The notes beneath the pieces were generated by a model. That model did no database searches. It was not told where the DNA came from and saw only the letters and a program-made list of their open reading frames with translations. Below, in pieces: positions 54,849-63,896 of a DNA stretch of 64,000 bases (positions are counted from its first letter, which is position 1; each line of letters opens with the position of its first letter). The DNA comes from Methanobrevibacter sp. YE315 (GTDB lineage Archaea > Methanobacteriota > Methanobacteria > Methanobacteriales > Methanobacteriaceae), in contig NZ_CP010834.1 in NCBI RefSeq assembly GCF_001548675.1, positions 1,089,501 through 1,153,500 of the forward strand. Reading direction: 5' to 3'. The translations under genes were made by a program, and so were the position numbers.

Positions 54849-56096
54849 CTAATTAAACTTCTTATATGCTGCAAAAATACAGACAATTGCAATCAGTATC
54901 AGTCCAATAATTCCATAATTGATTAGTGAAGAATTATCTTCTGCAGCTTTTTCTTCACTATCTTTTAGATTATTGTCAGTGCTATTGGCATCATCTGCAC
55001 CAGCGCTTTCATTTACGCTTTGAGATACAACATTGATAACGGATGCCGGAGCATTGCTCCTTGAAACGGATTTGACAGCATCATTTATTGTTGGATCTGA
55101 TGAAATCATATTACTGCTTTTAGAATCTGATGATATTTGACTATCAATTTGATTAGTGTTATTGATGAGCTCTTCAACAAATCCTGATGCCTCTTTTGGA
55201 ATGCTATTCGGCAAAATGTTTACAGATTGATTTTTAATTAAATCAATGATTGTCTGATCGAAAGCCATCTGTGGAGTTTCACACTGATTTGCATCTTCAC
55301 CTGTATATTTTATATAGTCTTGTGTAACTTTATTGTAATAATCATAGTTTTTATATGCGTCAAGAGTTTTACCATCTACAATAACAGTTCCCGCATTAGA
55401 ATTGCTGCCATAATTTTCTTTAAGATCTTTTATAAGGCGTGTGAAGTTTTCATCTCTTTCAGATATCCATTTTTTGAAATTATCTATTAATTCTTTAAGG
55501 TAAATAGGAATATCTTCAGAATCATCTAAATCCTCATCAGAATCATCATCCCAATCATCTTCAGAATCATCTAAATCCTCATCAGAATCATCTAAATCAT
55601 CTTCAGAATCATCTAAATCATCTTCAGAATCATCTAAATCCTCATCAGAATCATCATCCCAATCATCTTCAGAATCATCTAAATCCTCATCAGAATCATC
55701 ATCCCAATCATCTTCAGAATCATCTAAATCCTCATCAGAATCATCTAAATCATCTTCAGAATCATCTAAATCCTCATCAGAATCATCTAAATCATCTTCA
55801 GAATCATCTAAATCCTCATCAGAGTCATCATCCCAATCATCTTCAGAATCATCTAAATCCTCATCAGAATCATCTAAATCATCTTCAGAATCATCTAAAT
55901 CATCTTCAGAGTCATCATCCCAATCATCAGAATCATCTAAATCATCAGGACCTGCAATATCAGCAATATCATCATCAAATATGATATTGGATTCATCATC
56001 AACGATATCTGCATCTCCGGATGCAAAAGCAACACTGGTTGTTGCTATAAGAAGTGCGAAAAGAATTAAAAACATTGATATTCTTTTATAATCCAT
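54849..56096 (-). CDS. membrane-anchored Asp/Ser/Glu-repeat surface protein
   Basis: 415 residues: signal peptide (about 1-26), a repeat block (51-195) made only of D, S, E, L and W in units such as DLDDSED and DDWDDDSDE, a helical region (about 196-370), and a C-terminal membrane anchor (about 389-410, SLINYGIIGLILI) with a short KK tail. The strongly acidic block could bind Ca2+ or other cations, like Sdr-type repeats of bacteria, but no family is recognised. GAGGTGAG precedes the start. Confidence 0.75.
   Translation of the reverse strand: MDYKRISMFLILFALLIATTSVAFASGDADIVDDESNIIFDDDIADIAGPDDLDDSDDWDDDSEDDLDDSEDDLDDSDEDLDDSEDDWDDDSDEDLDDSEDDLDDSDEDLDDSEDDLDDSDEDLDDSEDDWDDDSDEDLDDSEDDWDDDSDEDLDDSEDDLDDSEDDLDDSDEDLDDSEDDWDDDSDEDLDDSEDIPIYLKELIDNFKKWISERDENFTRLIKDLKENYGSNSNAGTVIVDGKTLDAYKNYDYYNKVTQDYIKYTGEDANQCETPQMAFDQTIIDLIKNQSVNILPNSIPKEASGFVEELINNTNQIDSQISSDSKSSNMISSDPTINDAVKSVSRSNAPASVINVVSQSVNESAGADDANSTDNNLKDSEEKAAEDNSSLINYGIIGLILIAIVCIFAAYKKFN
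55512..55946 (-). repeat. in-gene tandem repeat encoding the acidic DSE block
   Basis: The plus strand reads as repeated ATCATCTTCAGA / ATCATCTAAATC units with small changes. The period is about 21 or 42 nt, in frame with 7- and 14-residue protein units. The length probably varies between strains. Confidence 0.8.
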
Positions 56097-56262: not shown

Positions 56263-56817
56263 ATGTCCCTAAATCTTATTTCAATTACATTAGTTGCTGT
56301 TGCTCTTGCAATGGATGCGTTTAGCGTATCAATGACTAAGGGTTTTACTCAAAAAAATCTTACAAAACAGCAAATCCTATATTACGGCATATTTTTTGGT
56401 GGATTTCAAGCATTAATGCCTATTTTAGGATACTTCTGTGGAAATGTTATTTCATCCATTGTTGAATCATTAGCATCCATAATAGGATTTATTTTGCTTC
56501 TCCTCATTGGAATAAATATGATTAGGGAAAGCCTATCCCATGATGAGGACGAGATTACTGATCAGTTTTCATTTAAGGAAGTGACTTTGCTTGCAATCGC
56601 AACAAGTATTGATGCATTTGCAGTTGGAATTACCATTGCTCTTCTAAAAGATTCTATTTTGATTTCATCATTTATTATTGGTATTGTTGCATTCCTATTC
56701 AGTATAGTGGGCGTTTATATCGGAAAAAGAATCGGACACTTTGTTGGTGACAAATTCCAGATTGTCGGTGGTGTAATCCTTATATTAATCGGCATTAAGA
56801 TTCTTTTAGGATTCTGA
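56263..56817 (+). CDS. mntP: manganese efflux pump MntP
   Basis: 184 residues with six membrane helices and the paired MntP motifs DAFSVSMTKG (near 19) and SIDAFAVGI (in the second half). It exports Mn2+. It is divergent from the acidic-repeat gene. No RBS is seen, and TATA-like TTATAAATAA lies about 30 bp before ATG 56263, so a leaderless message is likely. Confidence 0.88.
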   Translation: MSLNLISITLVAVALAMDAFSVSMTKGFTQKNLTKQQILYYGIFFGGFQALMPILGYFCGNVISSIVESLASIIGFILLLLIGINMIRESLSHDEDEITDQFSFKEVTLLAIATSIDAFAVGITIALLKDSILISSFIIGIVAFLFSIVGVYIGKRIGHFVGDKFQIVGGVILILIGIKILLGF

Positions 56818-56940
56818 TTTTCACCAAAAATTATTAAAATTTTCACAAATCATTGAATTTCAACCAACAAATATAGATGGCATGACTAATTTAGGTATGT
56901 TTTGAAATTTTTTATATTTCCCAGAATTTCGGAAATTATT

Positions 56941-56967
56941 AAAATTCATGAATTTTATTAAATTTTA
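56941..56967 (+). repeat. 27-bp direct repeat, left copy
   Basis: Matches the copy at 57491-57517 at 25 of 27 positions. It begins with the perfect palindrome AAAATTCATGAATTTT. The pair flanks 523 bp with no gene. Confidence 0.6.
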
Positions 56968-57423
56968 TAAATTTCATTAAAACAACCCATTCCTTGCACT
57001 TTATTTATCTTGATTTAATCGTTCTAAGATAGTTAAGTCATTATAATCTAATATAATGGTAAATATGATAAATAAAGGTCATTTAGATAATATGATTAAA
57101 AACAAAGCTCATATAAGCTTTATTTTTACTGCAAATACTGTTAGTGTGATATTACATTAGTCGGCATAGTATTTCCGTATATTATACCTTAAATACTATT
57201 AATAGATTAATATATAAAAATAGTTATTATGGGAAAATATGTATTATATCTATCACTATATATTATAGTAATTTACAGATAATTATTATAATACTATTAA
57301 TAGATATATCCTTATTTACAGATAACTAAATAATATATATAATATATAAATCTGTAAATATGGAAATACTTAATGTACATATTATGCTACTAATACTCAA
57401 GTAATATTTAGAAAGTACCATAA

Positions 57424-57470
57424 ATCAATAGCTCCATATATATCAAGCTATTGATATATGACTTTTTCTT
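57424..57470 (+). terminator. 10-bp hairpin with T-rich tract and no upstream gene
   Basis: ATCAATAGCT (57424-57433) pairs with AGCTATTGAT (57446-57455), then a T-rich stretch. The nearest plus-strand gene ends 600 bp earlier, so it may end an unannotated RNA. Confidence 0.4.
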
Positions 57471-57490
57471 CAAATTTAGTGAATTTTAAT

Positions 57491-57517
57491 AAAATTCATG
57501 AAATTTAATAAATTTTA
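57491..57517 (+). repeat. 27-bp direct repeat, right copy
   Basis: Matches 56941-56967 at 25 of 27 positions and abuts the stop codon of the 57518-58546 gene. Low sequence complexity makes chance possible. Confidence 0.55.
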
Positions 57518-58546
57518 CTAACGACGATGACGATTATTTTTAATAAATCTGACAATAGTTAATGAAATTTTAGTGGCAAGCAAAACTGCTACAAAAATTG
57601 CCAGAATTCCAAAAATCATTGTACACCAGTAATACATTTGAACCCTATTAGGAATATCCTTTTCGAAAGTAATGTTTCCAATATCCTTATATTCAGGAGC
57701 AATAGGAATATCTGAAGCATTTATGACTTTTCCATTGATATAAACATTATCAACCATGTTTCTACATGCCATATTGAATCTGGAACCGTCATCATTGGAA
57801 ATATAAATGTCAGTTATATTTCTATAGGTTGTAAAATTATCATTTGAATAGAAATGAAAAGTGCTTATATCTCTTCTGGTGAGTCCAAACATGTCAGAAG
57901 CTGCCAAATCGGTCATTTCCTTGACTTTATCACCGTTATTTAATGTAAGATTACCATATCTTATGTAACCTTCCCTATTCGGAATAGAAACATATTCTCC
58001 AGGTTTCAATTTTCCTGTATAAAAACTATTTGCGGTTGCAACACCATAATTACCGTCAGGATCTTTAATTACAACATGACCAATCTTGTATAATGCTTTG
58101 ATTTGCTGAATTTCCTGTAAATGGCCTTCAGAGATATTATTCTCTTCAGTAATCATCTGAGCGGTGATATTTTCAATTATTTCATTATAAACACCATCAT
58201 CTTTACCGCCACATCCAACTACCCAACCGTCATCGGTAATGATTACTTGGCAGAAATACTCTCCATCGGTTTTATATTGCTTGATAGCGGGTGTTCCGTG
58301 CCAATCTACCTTTTCAATGAAAATATCTGCATATGTTTTGGCATCACGCCTAAAGGAAATCATACTCTCATTTCCATCCATCTGCAGAACTACAGAACAG
58401 CACCCAATCAAGTCTGATTCATCAGTATTATCCAAAAGCAGCTGAATATCTGAATTGTTTTCAGCAATATCCGATGCATAAACAGCAAATAGCGAAATTA
58501 ATATTAATATAAAGCTTATCAATAATATTTCCTTTTTAAAATTCAT
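57518..58546 (-). CDS. membrane-anchored surface protein, possible Cys-type acylase-like
   Basis: 342 residues: N-terminal signal/membrane segment, an outer domain, and a C-terminal membrane segment (about 305-330) before basic residues. After the signal region comes GCCSVVLQMDGNES...FRRDA, then QVIITDDGWVVGCGG and VIKDPDGNYGVA. This Cys-then-strand pattern recalls N-terminal-nucleophile acylases (C45/AAT group), but no precursor cleavage is proven. GAGGGA precedes the start. It lies in the cell envelope; function unknown. Confidence 0.65.
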   Translation of the reverse strand: MNFKKEILLISFILILISLFAVYASDIAENNSDIQLLLDNTDESDLIGCCSVVLQMDGNESMISFRRDAKTYADIFIEKVDWHGTPAIKQYKTDGEYFCQVIITDDGWVVGCGGKDDGVYNEIIENITAQMITEENNISEGHLQEIQQIKALYKIGHVVIKDPDGNYGVATANSFYTGKLKPGEYVSIPNREGYIRYGNLTLNNGDKVKEMTDLAASDMFGLTRRDISTFHFYSNDNFTTYRNITDIYISNDDGSRFNMACRNMVDNVYINGKVINASDIPIAPEYKDIGNITFEKDIPNRVQMYYWCTMIFGILAIFVAVLLATKISLTIVRFIKNNRHRR

Positions 58547-58663: not shown

Positions 58664-59746
58664 TTAAATAGTAAATTTCATATTATTTAATTTCAATTTT
58701 TGTTTCATTTGTTCTCTGTCAACATGAATATATTTATCAGTTGTTTGACTGTTGGAATGTCCTGCAATTGTTTGAACCTCAGCAACGGTCAAAATCTCTG
58801 CATAATGGCTTAAAGCGGTGTGTCTGAGGATATGCACGCTAACATTTCTCCCATAATTTACAGGACAATCAATTCCTTCGGCATCAATCCTTTCATCACA
58901 TTCACGAGCATGCTTTTTAATGATATCTTGAACTCCACGTTTTCCAATACGATTGCCTTTGATGTTGGTAAATAGTTCTTCACGTGTTGCCTCTTGTGCT
59001 GCTTTGTTGCGTTGAATTACTGGCCTATAGAGGTCATTTGTATTTTTTCTAAGTTTTGTGATGCGATCCATCATCATATCATTTAAGCTGACAAGAGTGT
59101 CATAGGTAATGAAAGTTGTACGATCCTTCAATTCACCTTTTGTGGTTTCTGCACGCAAGTATACATCAATAAACTCATTTGAATCCTCAGGCAAGATATA
59201 AAATCCTTTTTCATCTAAAGGGACCTGAATATCACTTTTATTTAAGAGAACCAGTTCTTTCAGCCTCATTCCTGAATCTATGAAAGTCCTGCAGATGGCG
59301 TAATCCCTTATATTGCCGCTCTGTTCTATTGTATCTAGGAAAAAGGCGGCCTGTGGCCTTGTCAAACTGATTTTTTCTATTCTTTTTTTAGCGGTTTCCG
59401 GATCTTCGGCTTTGACTTCAATGATATCCTTCATTTTAATGGTTTCATGGTTGATTTCTTCCTGAACATCTTCAGAGTTGATGAATTCCAGAATGTTCAT
59501 CATATATGTTTTGACTGTGGTTCTCTTATTTCCACGCTGTTTTAAACAGTATCTACGATAATGCCTCAGTTGCTTTTTAACGTTGGTGCTGTTTAATTCA
59601 TCCACTCCCTCATTTTCCAGGTATTCTATGAATTTGGATATGTTGAATGTTTGTTTGCGTATTGTTTCATCAGTTAAGTTTTTTACCTCTTGCTTTTCTT
59701 CCAAGTATTCATCTAGGTAGTCCGTTAGCTCATCAACTTCAATCAT
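58664..59746 (-). CDS. tyrosine recombinase (phage-integrase family)
   Basis: 360 residues. N-terminal SAM-like helices (about 20-100), then the catalytic domain with all active residues: R161 (SGMRLKEL), K203, H305 and R308 (HILRH), H330 (AGHSNSQTTDKY) and nucleophile Y339. The domain is intact, so the enzyme is probably active. It could be a chromosomal recombinase (Xer-like) or the integrase of a mobile element. The ATPase and cas genes nearby and the missing obvious att site leave this open. AGGGGGC precedes the start. Confidence 0.87.
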   Translation of the reverse strand: MIEVDELTDYLDEYLEEKQEVKNLTDETIRKQTFNISKFIEYLENEGVDELNSTNVKKQLRHYRRYCLKQRGNKRTTVKTYMMNILEFINSEDVQEEINHETIKMKDIIEVKAEDPETAKKRIEKISLTRPQAAFFLDTIEQSGNIRDYAICRTFIDSGMRLKELVLLNKSDIQVPLDEKGFYILPEDSNEFIDVYLRAETTKGELKDRTTFITYDTLVSLNDMMMDRITKLRKNTNDLYRPVIQRNKAAQEATREELFTNIKGNRIGKRGVQDIIKKHARECDERIDAEGIDCPVNYGRNVSVHILRHTALSHYAEILTVAEVQTIAGHSNSQTTDKYIHVDREQMKQKLKLNNMKFTI

Positions 59747-60284
59747 AAGCTTTTTGCCCCCTAAATTTTTAATACCTAACCCTTGTTTTACTATTGATTT
59801 TTTTAGTATATAAAGACTTCGTATCTTTTCTCTATTAATGTATATTATTACATAAAATATACGTTTACTTTATATATAAAATTTCGATAATTTGGGAGTT
59901 TGTTGGGAAGTGTAGAAAGTGTAGTAGAACATATACATCAGTTGGTTGAAATATGGTGATTTCGCCAATTTTTGAATTTGTAATATTAATATATGTTAAA
60001 AGTAATAAAAATTTTGGATTTGAAACTTAATGACAATTTACTTCATAAAAAAAATATACAAAAAAATTAGTAATCCTCAATTATAAAAAAATATAGGTAT
60101 ATGATGACAGATGAAAAATATTTTAAAAAAATATCTTTCATCTGCGTGATAAATTATATTGCATTACTTTAAGTGTTCTTACACTGATCTTATGCATTAT
60201 AGATTTATCAATGTAACCCATGAAAATTAAATCAAAGTTGACATTTAAAAGTACATCATCATGAGTTGACACAATGCCTTTAAT
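59747..60284. other. intergenic region with a hairpin and a short open frame
   Basis: AT-rich spacer between integrase and ATPase. CAGATGAAA (60108-60116) and TTTCATCTG (60136-60144) form a perfect 9-bp inverted repeat. On the minus strand a 44-codon frame (60272-60138) lies in the same frame as the ATPase just beyond its TAG stop; it may be chance. No attachment site recognised. Confidence 0.4.
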
Positions 60285-62623: not shown

Positions 62624-62899
62624 ATGTATATGATAGCCAGCTTTGATTGCAAATTCAAAACAAACCAAGAAAAGATTGAAAGAATCCTTCAGCATTTTGG
62701 ACTTAGAAAGATTCAAGGTTCATTATATGCAGGAGAACTGGAGAATAGTGAACGTGAGACGTTAGTGAAAAGTATTGATGAAATCATCAAGGAAAAAGAT
62801 AGTGTTCTGGTAATTCCAATTTGCCAAAATTGCTATTTGAAAAAAGAGAATTGCGGAAGGGAAATAAAATTCAAAAGCGATTTATACAGGGTGTATTGA
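62624..62899 (+). CDS. cas2: CRISPR-associated Cas2
   Basis: 91 residues with the ferredoxin-like Cas2 outline: MYMIASFDCKF at the start, YAGELENSERETL in the middle and VLVIPICQNCYLKKENCG near the end. The Asp in the first strand is the usual metal ligand. It dimerises and supports Cas1 in spacer integration. The CxxC pair near the C-terminus is typical of some archaeal members. It ends 1 bp before cas1. No clear RBS. Confidence 0.85.
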   Translation: MYMIASFDCKFKTNQEKIERILQHFGLRKIQGSLYAGELENSERETLVKSIDEIIKEKDSVLVIPICQNCYLKKENCGREIKFKSDLYRVY

Positions 62900-62900
62900 G

Positions 62901-63896
62901 ATGAAACTAATAATTGACGGATACAACAAGTCCATACATAAGAAAGACAATCAGATTGTCATACATGAAAAGGATGAAATCCTTGATTCCATCAAGGCAA
63001 GCACAGTAACGGACATTACAGTTATAGGAAAAGGATATGTGACCTTTGATGCGCTGAATCTGATAGCAGAAAACAACATTAAACTGATTGCTATCAGTCC
63101 ACGAGGCCAACTTACCTATACATTGGAATCTCCCGATTGGCGAAATGTAGCCCTTAAAAAGGAGCAATACAAATTAAGCGAAAACAAGTTAGGCCTTAGG
63201 ATTTCAAAGGAACTGATCATTTCAAAAATGAAAAATCAGAAAGCGACATTAACAACATTGAACAAAAACAAACAGCTGAAAAGAGTATTCAATCACAGGT
63301 CAAAAATCGATGAATGCATCAGCCAACTTTCAGAACTGAATTTTAAGGGAAACAATGAAGACATCAGAATGAGAATAATGGGTCTGGAAGGAAAGGCATC
63401 AAATGAATACTGGTCTGGAGTCAAATATTTCATTCCTTGTGAAATCGGATTTGATTCCCGCACAAAAAAGCCGACAGATTTAATGAATTCAATGCTGAAT
63501 TACGGTTATGCAATACTTGCAAGTGAAATAACAAAAAGCATTCTTGTAAACGGCTTGGATCCATACTGCGGCTTTCTGCACTTTGATATGTATGGTAGAA
63601 CCAGTCTGACATTTGATTTAATAGAGCCGTTCAGACAGCAGATTGTAGATAAAACTGTGATTGGCTTACTAAATAAAAAAAGAATTACGGTTGATGATAT
63701 GGATAGGCGAAACAATACAATTAAACTGGAAGCCAGAAAACTAATCGTTGAAAAGATATTGGGCAAAATCTACTCAACAATAACATATGAAGATGAAGCT
63801 GTCAGCTATTCGGATTTGATTCAAAAGCAAAGTGAGGATTTGGTTCATGTGTTGCTGAAGGGTAAAAAATTCAATGGATTTTACCTTCGATGGTGA
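62901..63896 (+). CDS. cas1: CRISPR-associated endonuclease/integrase Cas1
   Basis: 331 residues. Beta-rich N-terminal domain (1-85) then helical catalytic domain with E163 (MGLEGKAS), H227 (GFLHFDMYGRTS) and E242 (DLIEPFR), the expected metal ligands. It cuts and joins new spacers at the leader end of a CRISPR array. It is coupled to cas2 by a 1-bp gap. No effector gene is in the window, so the subtype cannot be named. Confidence 0.93.
   Translation: MKLIIDGYNKSIHKKDNQIVIHEKDEILDSIKASTVTDITVIGKGYVTFDALNLIAENNIKLIAISPRGQLTYTLESPDWRNVALKKEQYKLSENKLGLRISKELIISKMKNQKATLTTLNKNKQLKRVFNHRSKIDECISQLSELNFKGNNEDIRMRIMGLEGKASNEYWSGVKYFIPCEIGFDSRTKKPTDLMNSMLNYGYAILASEITKSILVNGLDPYCGFLHFDMYGRTSLTFDLIEPFRQQIVDKTVIGLLNKKRITVDDMDRRNNTIKLEARKLIVEKILGKIYSTITYEDEAVSYSDLIQKQSEDLVHVLLKGKKFNGFYLRW

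Follow-up and report, generated by a model that had tools for sequence, protein, structure and literature searches.

A conserved noncoding element paired with a tyrosine recombinase at the replication terminus of Methanobrevibacter, a probable dif-like resolution locus

Related recombination systems and the locus in Methanobrevibacter sp. YE315

The closest described systems are XerS/difSL of streptococci and lactococci and XerH/difH of Helicobacter and Campylobacter, in which a single recombinase of 354-362 amino acids is encoded beside its site (excerpt of PMC5357621). As in these systems, where the usual Xer pair is replaced at the terminus, the locus analyzed here combines one recombinase of about 360 amino acids, hereafter INT, with a dif-like site beside it in the terminus region. 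INT carries the R-K-H-R-H-Y residues of single-recombinase Xer proteins, and the arms and spacer of its candidate crossover site, C1, fit their plan of 10-12 bp and 6-11 bp, respectively. Unlike XerS and XerH, the INT locus is archaeal and contains about 400 bp of conserved accessory sequence as well as three related sites; moreover, INT reached 42.3 bits against the XerS model PRK05084, under its cut-off of 267.

Archaeal XerA/dif, which is also predicted in Methanosphaera stadtmanae, shares with the INT locus a tyrosine recombinase, 11-bp arms with a 6-bp spacer and a position in the terminus region (Pyrococcus, Thermoplasma). However, INT was only 23-30% identical to XerA of relatives over about 274 columns and scored 94.6 bits against the XerA model NF040815, under the cut-off of 220, and the arms of C1 are presumably unlike those of archaeal dif. 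In the plasmid systems cer and psi, a core site is accompanied by about 200 bp of bound accessory DNA that acts as a topological filter; since the INT locus is chromosomal and archaeal, this likeness is only an analogy. Finally, in invertible elements of the fim type, inverted recombination sites are separated by some hundreds of bases and a recombinase gene lies nearby, as is the case for C1 and its inverted relative C2, but the INT locus differs in its terminus position and in keeping one orientation in 44 of 46 genomes.

Given the position at the terminus, the intact paired recombinase, the dif-like core, an inversion that appears to have split this core and the missing gene for the usual resolvase, we consider the segment to be probably the recombination locus of an Xer/dif-like module for chromosome resolution, which relies on a single recombinase and has displaced XerA.

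The genome of Methanobrevibacter sp. YE315 (G000 in the comparisons) consists of a single contig of 2,273,296 bases, and the window, i.e., the whole stretch of 64,000 nucleotides that was analyzed, corresponds to positions 1,089,501-1,153,500. Scans within this genome covered 464 kb of 2.27 Mb (the window and 20 samples). The gene-free segment, 56941-57517, lies between two convergent genes, an mntP-like gene (56263-56817, plus strand) and a gene for a protein of 342 amino acids (57518-58546, minus strand). A sequence-only reading of this DNA had described 27-bp direct repeats around 523 bp. Both repeats (56941-56967 and 57491-57517) were found at these places with 25 of 27 positions matching, but the inverted match is even better (26 of 27); as the AT-rich end repeats are palindromic, a direct repeat is only one of two possible readings. 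Other details of that description were reproduced exactly, namely the doubled 16-mer AATACTATTAATAGAT (57192-57207 and 57290-57305, plus strand), three copies of ATTTACAGAT (57271 and 57314 on the plus strand, 57350 on the minus strand) with no others in the 464 kb scanned, and an integrase gene 1.1 kb away, since the INT gene starts 1147 bp to the right of the segment.

Alignment of 30 loci, all turned to one orientation, showed that the stretch to the left of about 57110 is not conserved, and that the remaining part, about 57112-57517, forms a single-copy noncoding element. A profile of this element gave 270 bits at the locus and nothing above 5 bits elsewhere in the 464 kb scanned. Its blocks follow in the order module A, module B, a long palindrome around CATATATATC that contains C1, and the end repeat. 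Module A (GTTAGTGTGATATTAC..TAGTCGGCATAGTATTTCCGTATAT, 57140-57184, plus strand) was strongly conserved both in the 30 loci, where the block reads TAGTCGG..TATTTCCG, and in a pattern search; in many relatives it is palindromic (CGGAAA..TTTCCG). Module B (57264-57370) holds the ATTTACAGAT iterons, which are halves of the palindrome TTTCTGTAAATACAGAAA found at this place in many relatives. A search of the window for tRNA genes found none. By eye, an open reading frame of 34 codons was read at about 57056-57160.

INT (58664-59746, minus strand) is a tyrosine recombinase of 360 amino acids (PF00589, E 7.5e-15), whose catalytic residues R161, K203, H305, R308, H330 and Y339 align with those of XerA. 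These six residues were invariant in 16 INT sequences, with a mean column identity of 88%. A Foldseek search with a structure model of INT gave as best matches the Tn1549 integrase and XerH-difH (E 3.7e-6, TM below 0.45), which we take as a hint only because the model is poor (mean pLDDT of 66). The 342-amino-acid protein encoded between the element and INT had no match in Pfam or PHROGs and no confident match in NCBIfam. Its gene is probably not part of the module; in some genomes its relatives occupy other places or orientations around the locus. Elsewhere in the window, a protein of 415 amino acids (54849-56096) contains near-identical units that make up a long, acidic D/S/E repeat, and has no Pfam match.

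Conservation of the element and its pairing with INT

DNA searches were performed on 67 genomes of the genus, with the best eight candidates per genome scored. The element was matched in 44 of the 67, its own genome included, with E values of at most 4.8e-28 and 68-79% identity outside its own genome. A tally of 54 of 67 obtained at E 0.001 includes weak AT-rich matches, which were not counted. A diverged element was found by profile in two further genomes, G002 (E 1e-7) and G007 (E 3.5e-10), which we take to be genomes of the M. smithii group. The INT protein was matched once per genome, at 79-92% identity, and the 46 genomes (of 67) with such a match are the same 46 that contain the element. 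In the 21 INT-negative genomes, neither a whole INT nor the element was found by BLAST-type search, the best DNA match having an E value of 7.3e-6. Outside the genus, INT was not detected at E 1e-25 in 83 genomes from 18 other genera of the order. Several of the relatives come from the gut of goat, buffalo or roe deer, according to the record titles.

The recombinase gene adjoins the site in all 46 genomes. Of the 44 genomes detected by BLAST, 8 have a gap of 30-60 bp between gene and element, and in the other 36 the gap measures about 1.0-1.8 kb. The orientation of the element relative to INT is identical in 44 of the 46, the exceptions being G002 and G007. Neighboring genes (mntP, cas1/cas2 and others) appear, vanish or flip, while the element and INT remain together. 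A cas2 and cas1 pair also lies near the locus in the window (62624-63896), and its distance and orientation vary in several relatives. A chance origin of the segment is thus refuted by its conservation and by its profile score, and the suspected link to the nearby integrase is borne out by their co-occurrence. The proposal of a recent integration scar is contradicted by conservation throughout the genus, where the element at the terminus is paired with a single recombinase.

In a cdc6-2 tree, INT-negative genomes are interspersed with INT genomes (277 of 500 shuffles of this label scored as low). This tree represents one gene with a midpoint root and was used only for this scatter and for the clade of XerA genomes described below. 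The locus was often found near contig ends: INT lies at base 47 in G037, at base 141 in G057 and at base 198 in G050, and the element of G027 is three bases from the end of its contig. In G017, counted as INT-negative, a fragment of INT is cut by the contig end. In the same genome (locus L127), a transposase-like gene was read by eye directly after the INT fragment, at the position expected for the element.

The replication terminus and the distribution of XerA

GC skew was determined from 20-kb samples of four single-contig genomes (G000, G002, G004 and G007), and its change of sign at the locus in the four identifies the locus as the replication terminus. In G000, the values between 57 kb and the locus are positive or close to zero, and those beyond it are negative. 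In G002, it flips at the locus, from +0.082 just to the left to -0.089 across it and to the right, and in G007 between the samples nearest to the locus (+0.058 at 1.78-1.80 Mb, -0.070 at 1-20 kb). The flip in G004 is placed coarsely, in the interval from 1.10 to 1.40 Mb that includes the locus (1.26 Mb), and the samples near the origin of this genome show noise (-0.027 at 0.2 Mb and +0.010 at 2.3 Mb). Cumulative skew within the window peaks at about 52-53 kb, some 4-5 kb from the element. The locus lies about 175 degrees from orc1/cdc6-1 in G000 (gene at 39.8 kb), about 178 degrees in G004, where this gene stands at the start, and about 180 degrees in G002 (gene at 1,061 kb). In G007, whose arms differ in length (about 1266 and 587 kb), the locus goes with the skew switch, not with the antipode. 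A location at the skew switch opposite orc1/cdc6 contradicts the earlier idea of a replication origin; the partition site proposed along with it comes close to our preferred reading in so far as a role in chromosome segregation is concerned.

The XerA model NF040815 was run on the 67 genomes of the genus and the 83 of other genera, with the curated cut-off of 220 bits and with scores of at least 330 bits taken as canonical. Outside the genus, canonical XerA was found in 70 of the 83 genomes. Within it, 4 of the 21 INT-negative genomes have one (G026, G029, G061 and G066), and none of the 46 INT genomes does. Three XerA genomes share a single clade in the cdc6-2 tree. The xerA gene lies directly downstream of dnaG in G066, G029, G026, G061, G089, G126, G002 and G007; a different gene follows dnaG in G147. 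INT lies at the terminus and not at this orthologous position of XerA. Among 14 INT genomes examined at dnaG, bioY follows directly in 10 and another gene, without xerA, in G015 and G048; xerA is therefore missing from the place between dnaG and bioY in 12 of the 14, and is retained in G002 and G007. Eleven further INT-negative genomes were examined: bioY follows dnaG in G010, G020, G023 and G049, another gene in G016, G022 and G035, and in G033 and G052 the edge of the contig is close by. The remaining two carry partial xerA at dnaG, in pieces in G008 and cut by the contig end in G024.

Matches above 220 bits were present in 22 of the 46 INT genomes, those of G002 and G007 at the ancestral place (302-304 bits) and 20 others with 220-275 bits. 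Lower-scoring XerA-like copies also accompany canonical XerA, for example in G029, G077, G079 and G088. The lower copy of G002, the only one compared in this way, is 28-32% identical to 20 canonical XerA proteins, which are at least 57% identical to one another, and thus belongs to another family; the other copies with 220-275 bits could be resolvases. The XerA encoded at dnaG in G002 shares 46-60% identity with the canonical proteins and terminates shortly after the catalytic Tyr. Both M. smithii-group copies at dnaG (L223 and L228, from G002 and G007) are diverged, and XerA was possibly relaxed in this group while INT was present.

Fourteen of the 67 genomes contain neither INT nor canonical XerA. 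The scatter of INT-negative genomes in the tree, the frequent location of the locus near contig ends and the truncated INT of G017 lead us to read most of the fourteen as probable assembly gaps. From the absence of xerA we infer that INT would be needed for dimer resolution. A broader proposal, which we regard as tentative and somewhat short of an even chance, is that most of the genus has exchanged its resolution system. XerA would have given way to an integrase of another family acting on a composite, three-site terminus locus with about 400 bp of accessory DNA, the whole being self-contained, FtsK-independent and topologically gated, and M. smithii would be transitional, with both enzymes, a XerA with a shortened tail and an inverted locus.

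Candidate crossover sites, the inverted locus and competing explanations

The candidate dif-like crossover site C1, CAATAGCTCCA-TATATA-TCAAGCTATTG (57426-57453, plus strand), has the 11-6-11 organization given for dif in section 20 of PMC8371274. In its own genome, 9 of 11 positions agree when the arms are compared as inverted repeats, and 41 of 43 distinct sequences share the spacer TATATA. The paired fraction about the center of C1 was 0.67 versus 0.24-0.43 at slid centers. Alternative pairs were few (38, compared with 29.6 and a standard deviation of 3.7 in shuffles, 11 of 500 shuffles being as high), and C1 is therefore called a DNA palindrome and not a proven RNA stem. An outer palindrome surrounds it (57404-57472), with an AAGAAA-type box on the left and a TTTCTTCAAA-type box on the right, and the C1 profile matches both strands there (57396-57474 plus, 57472-57410 minus).

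Two C1-like sites were found at fixed distances. C2 (56842-56907, minus strand; core AAATATAGATGG at 56869-56880) is inverted relative to C1, 565 bp away from center to center. It is weak in its own genome, where 8 of 10 core positions match and the site is called by position. In a 60-bp window at the C2 position, 28 of 43 loci scored at least 8 of 10 and 23 at least 9, versus 0-7 and 0-2, respectively, of 39-44 loci in 14 control windows of equal size, and C1-type profile matches occur there in several relatives. C3 (59902-59967, plus strand; core ACATATACATCA at 59929-59940) lies 188 bp upstream of the INT start codon. Its core was present in 38 of 46 rows, in which three genomes occur twice; in 37 it lies 187-189 bp upstream of the INT start, and in one (L049, whose INT match begins at residue 7) elsewhere. 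Eight rows had no match to the C3 core there, three of them being cut by contig ends. With a C1 profile built without C3, C3 was the second-best distinct place in the 464 kb scanned of its own genome (E 0.17). It is not symmetric (0.30, like slid centers).

Other sequences were considered as the site of exchange. We take the TAGTCGG of module A to resemble the center of archaeal dif, and module A was examined as the core for this reason; C1 was preferred for its 11-6-11 symmetry and for the separation of its half-sites in the inverted locus, and module A may act as an additional site. The end repeats are not preferred as attachment sites because they are palindromic and because the inverted locus of G002 and G007 ends in C-type half-sites.

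In these two genomes, where the element is reversed relative to INT, the half-sites are 510 bp apart. One of them, located 576 bp from the INT end and facing the A/B segment, fits the left half of C1 (25.0 in G007 and 22.1 in G002, the lowest true score being 19.0), and its outer partner no longer fits the right half. The half-site beside INT fits the right half of C1 with 19.6 in G007 and 13.6 in G002, below the lowest true score of 24.4, and fits the left half of C2 as well or better (19.7 versus 19.6 in G007, 15.5 versus 13.6 in G002). In our reading, the segment was inverted with one of the crossovers in C1, which appears split at its center; that the partner crossover site was C2 is less sure. 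Since G002 and G007 are sister genomes in the cdc6-2 tree, the inversion counts as one event. A circle from M. smithii vesicles (excerpt of PMC12134362) was also considered as the same locus and rejected, as it maps to another place, 76.6-79.6 kb.

The mutually inverted arrangement of C1 and C2 at a fixed spacing, together with the inversion in G002 and G007, could suggest an invertible switch, in which INT would flip the 565-bp segment from C2 to C1 and thereby change the transcription of neighboring genes (phase variation). We judge this unlikely, given that 44 of 46 genomes share one orientation and both exceptions are sisters, that the segment lies here between convergent genes and its neighbors vary, and that a switch would leave the terminus position and the absence of xerA unexplained.

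In the resolution module that we favor, INT would bind both arms of C1 and exchange strands across the TATATA spacer. When sister chromosomes have been fused by homologous recombination, recombination between two direct copies of C1 at the terminus would restore monomers. Accessory sequences that shape the synapse may be provided by modules A and B, the end repeats, C2 and C3, so that the reaction would take place only in the right topology, and C3 may let INT control its own promoter. The conservation of the accessory DNA suggests, by analogy, a topological filter. Such gating would work without FtsK, much like cer and psi on plasmids. The module would have replaced XerA; most genomes examined no longer carry the xerA gene between dnaG and bioY.

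The locus bears on the question of how archaea, which are described as being without FtsK (excerpt of PMC2958812), limit Xer-type recombination to resolution. The answer offered by a topological filter can be tested directly here, given the several hundred extra conserved bases that accompany the site. If the proposal is correct, the locus would define the replication terminus of important gut and rumen methanogens and identify a recombinase that is likely key to them, and it would be an archaeal case of the enzyme swap known from streptococci and Helicobacter. Among the open-access papers listed in literature searches, no title pointed to this locus, and Methanobrevibacter is absent from the main text of PMC2958812 (Cortez et al.).

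INT also matches phage integrase families (PHROG 1, E 1e-30), is confined to one genus in the scan of the order and has C sites on both sides. These features would fit a domesticated or decaying integrated element, with INT and C1-C3 as attachment-site remnants of a mobile element at the terminus, kept for reasons related to integration. However, no close relative of INT was found in phage and plasmid records, where identities reached about 31% among the matches listed. Two peptide patterns were run on viral contigs, where 192 stretches fitted one or the other and none was confirmed as INT; the C1 core, searched there as an exact pattern of 20 fixed bases, was not present. No cargo is obvious, the active site is intact and the 16 INT sequences are highly similar, and INT stays beside the same element in 46 species-level genomes. 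This explanation is accordingly improbable in our view.

Still less probable is a site that organizes the terminus, such as a fork barrier or a centromere-like loading site, with its binding protein encoded elsewhere and INT merely nearby. The terminus position and the many palindromic iterons would fit such a site, but not the co-occurrence with INT in 46 genomes, nor the location of C3 at the INT promoter and the separation of the half-sites in the inverted locus.

Folding of 57396-57475 exceeded shuffles on both strands (z -4.6 on plus, -4.9 on minus); the hairpin previously described as terminator-like (57430-57475) is indeed strong, but we identify it as the dif-like palindrome. An ncRNA locus was also among the earlier proposals. 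A noncoding RNA that ends in this hairpin, although a T-rich stretch follows it, is very improbable, because the hairpin is equally good on the opposite strand, its loop ATATATAT is the most conserved part, compensatory changes are only slightly above those in shuffles and the window has no Rfam match at gathering scores.

Matches to the module A pattern with at most one mismatch were also seen at 33 places outside the element, among the matches listed from 150 genomes, for example at G100:C42:10409-10428 and G048:C90:4656-4675, versus one for the reversed control. Several of those listed consist of the palindrome CGGAAGTATACTTCCG, and such matches perhaps represent sites of a separate regulator.
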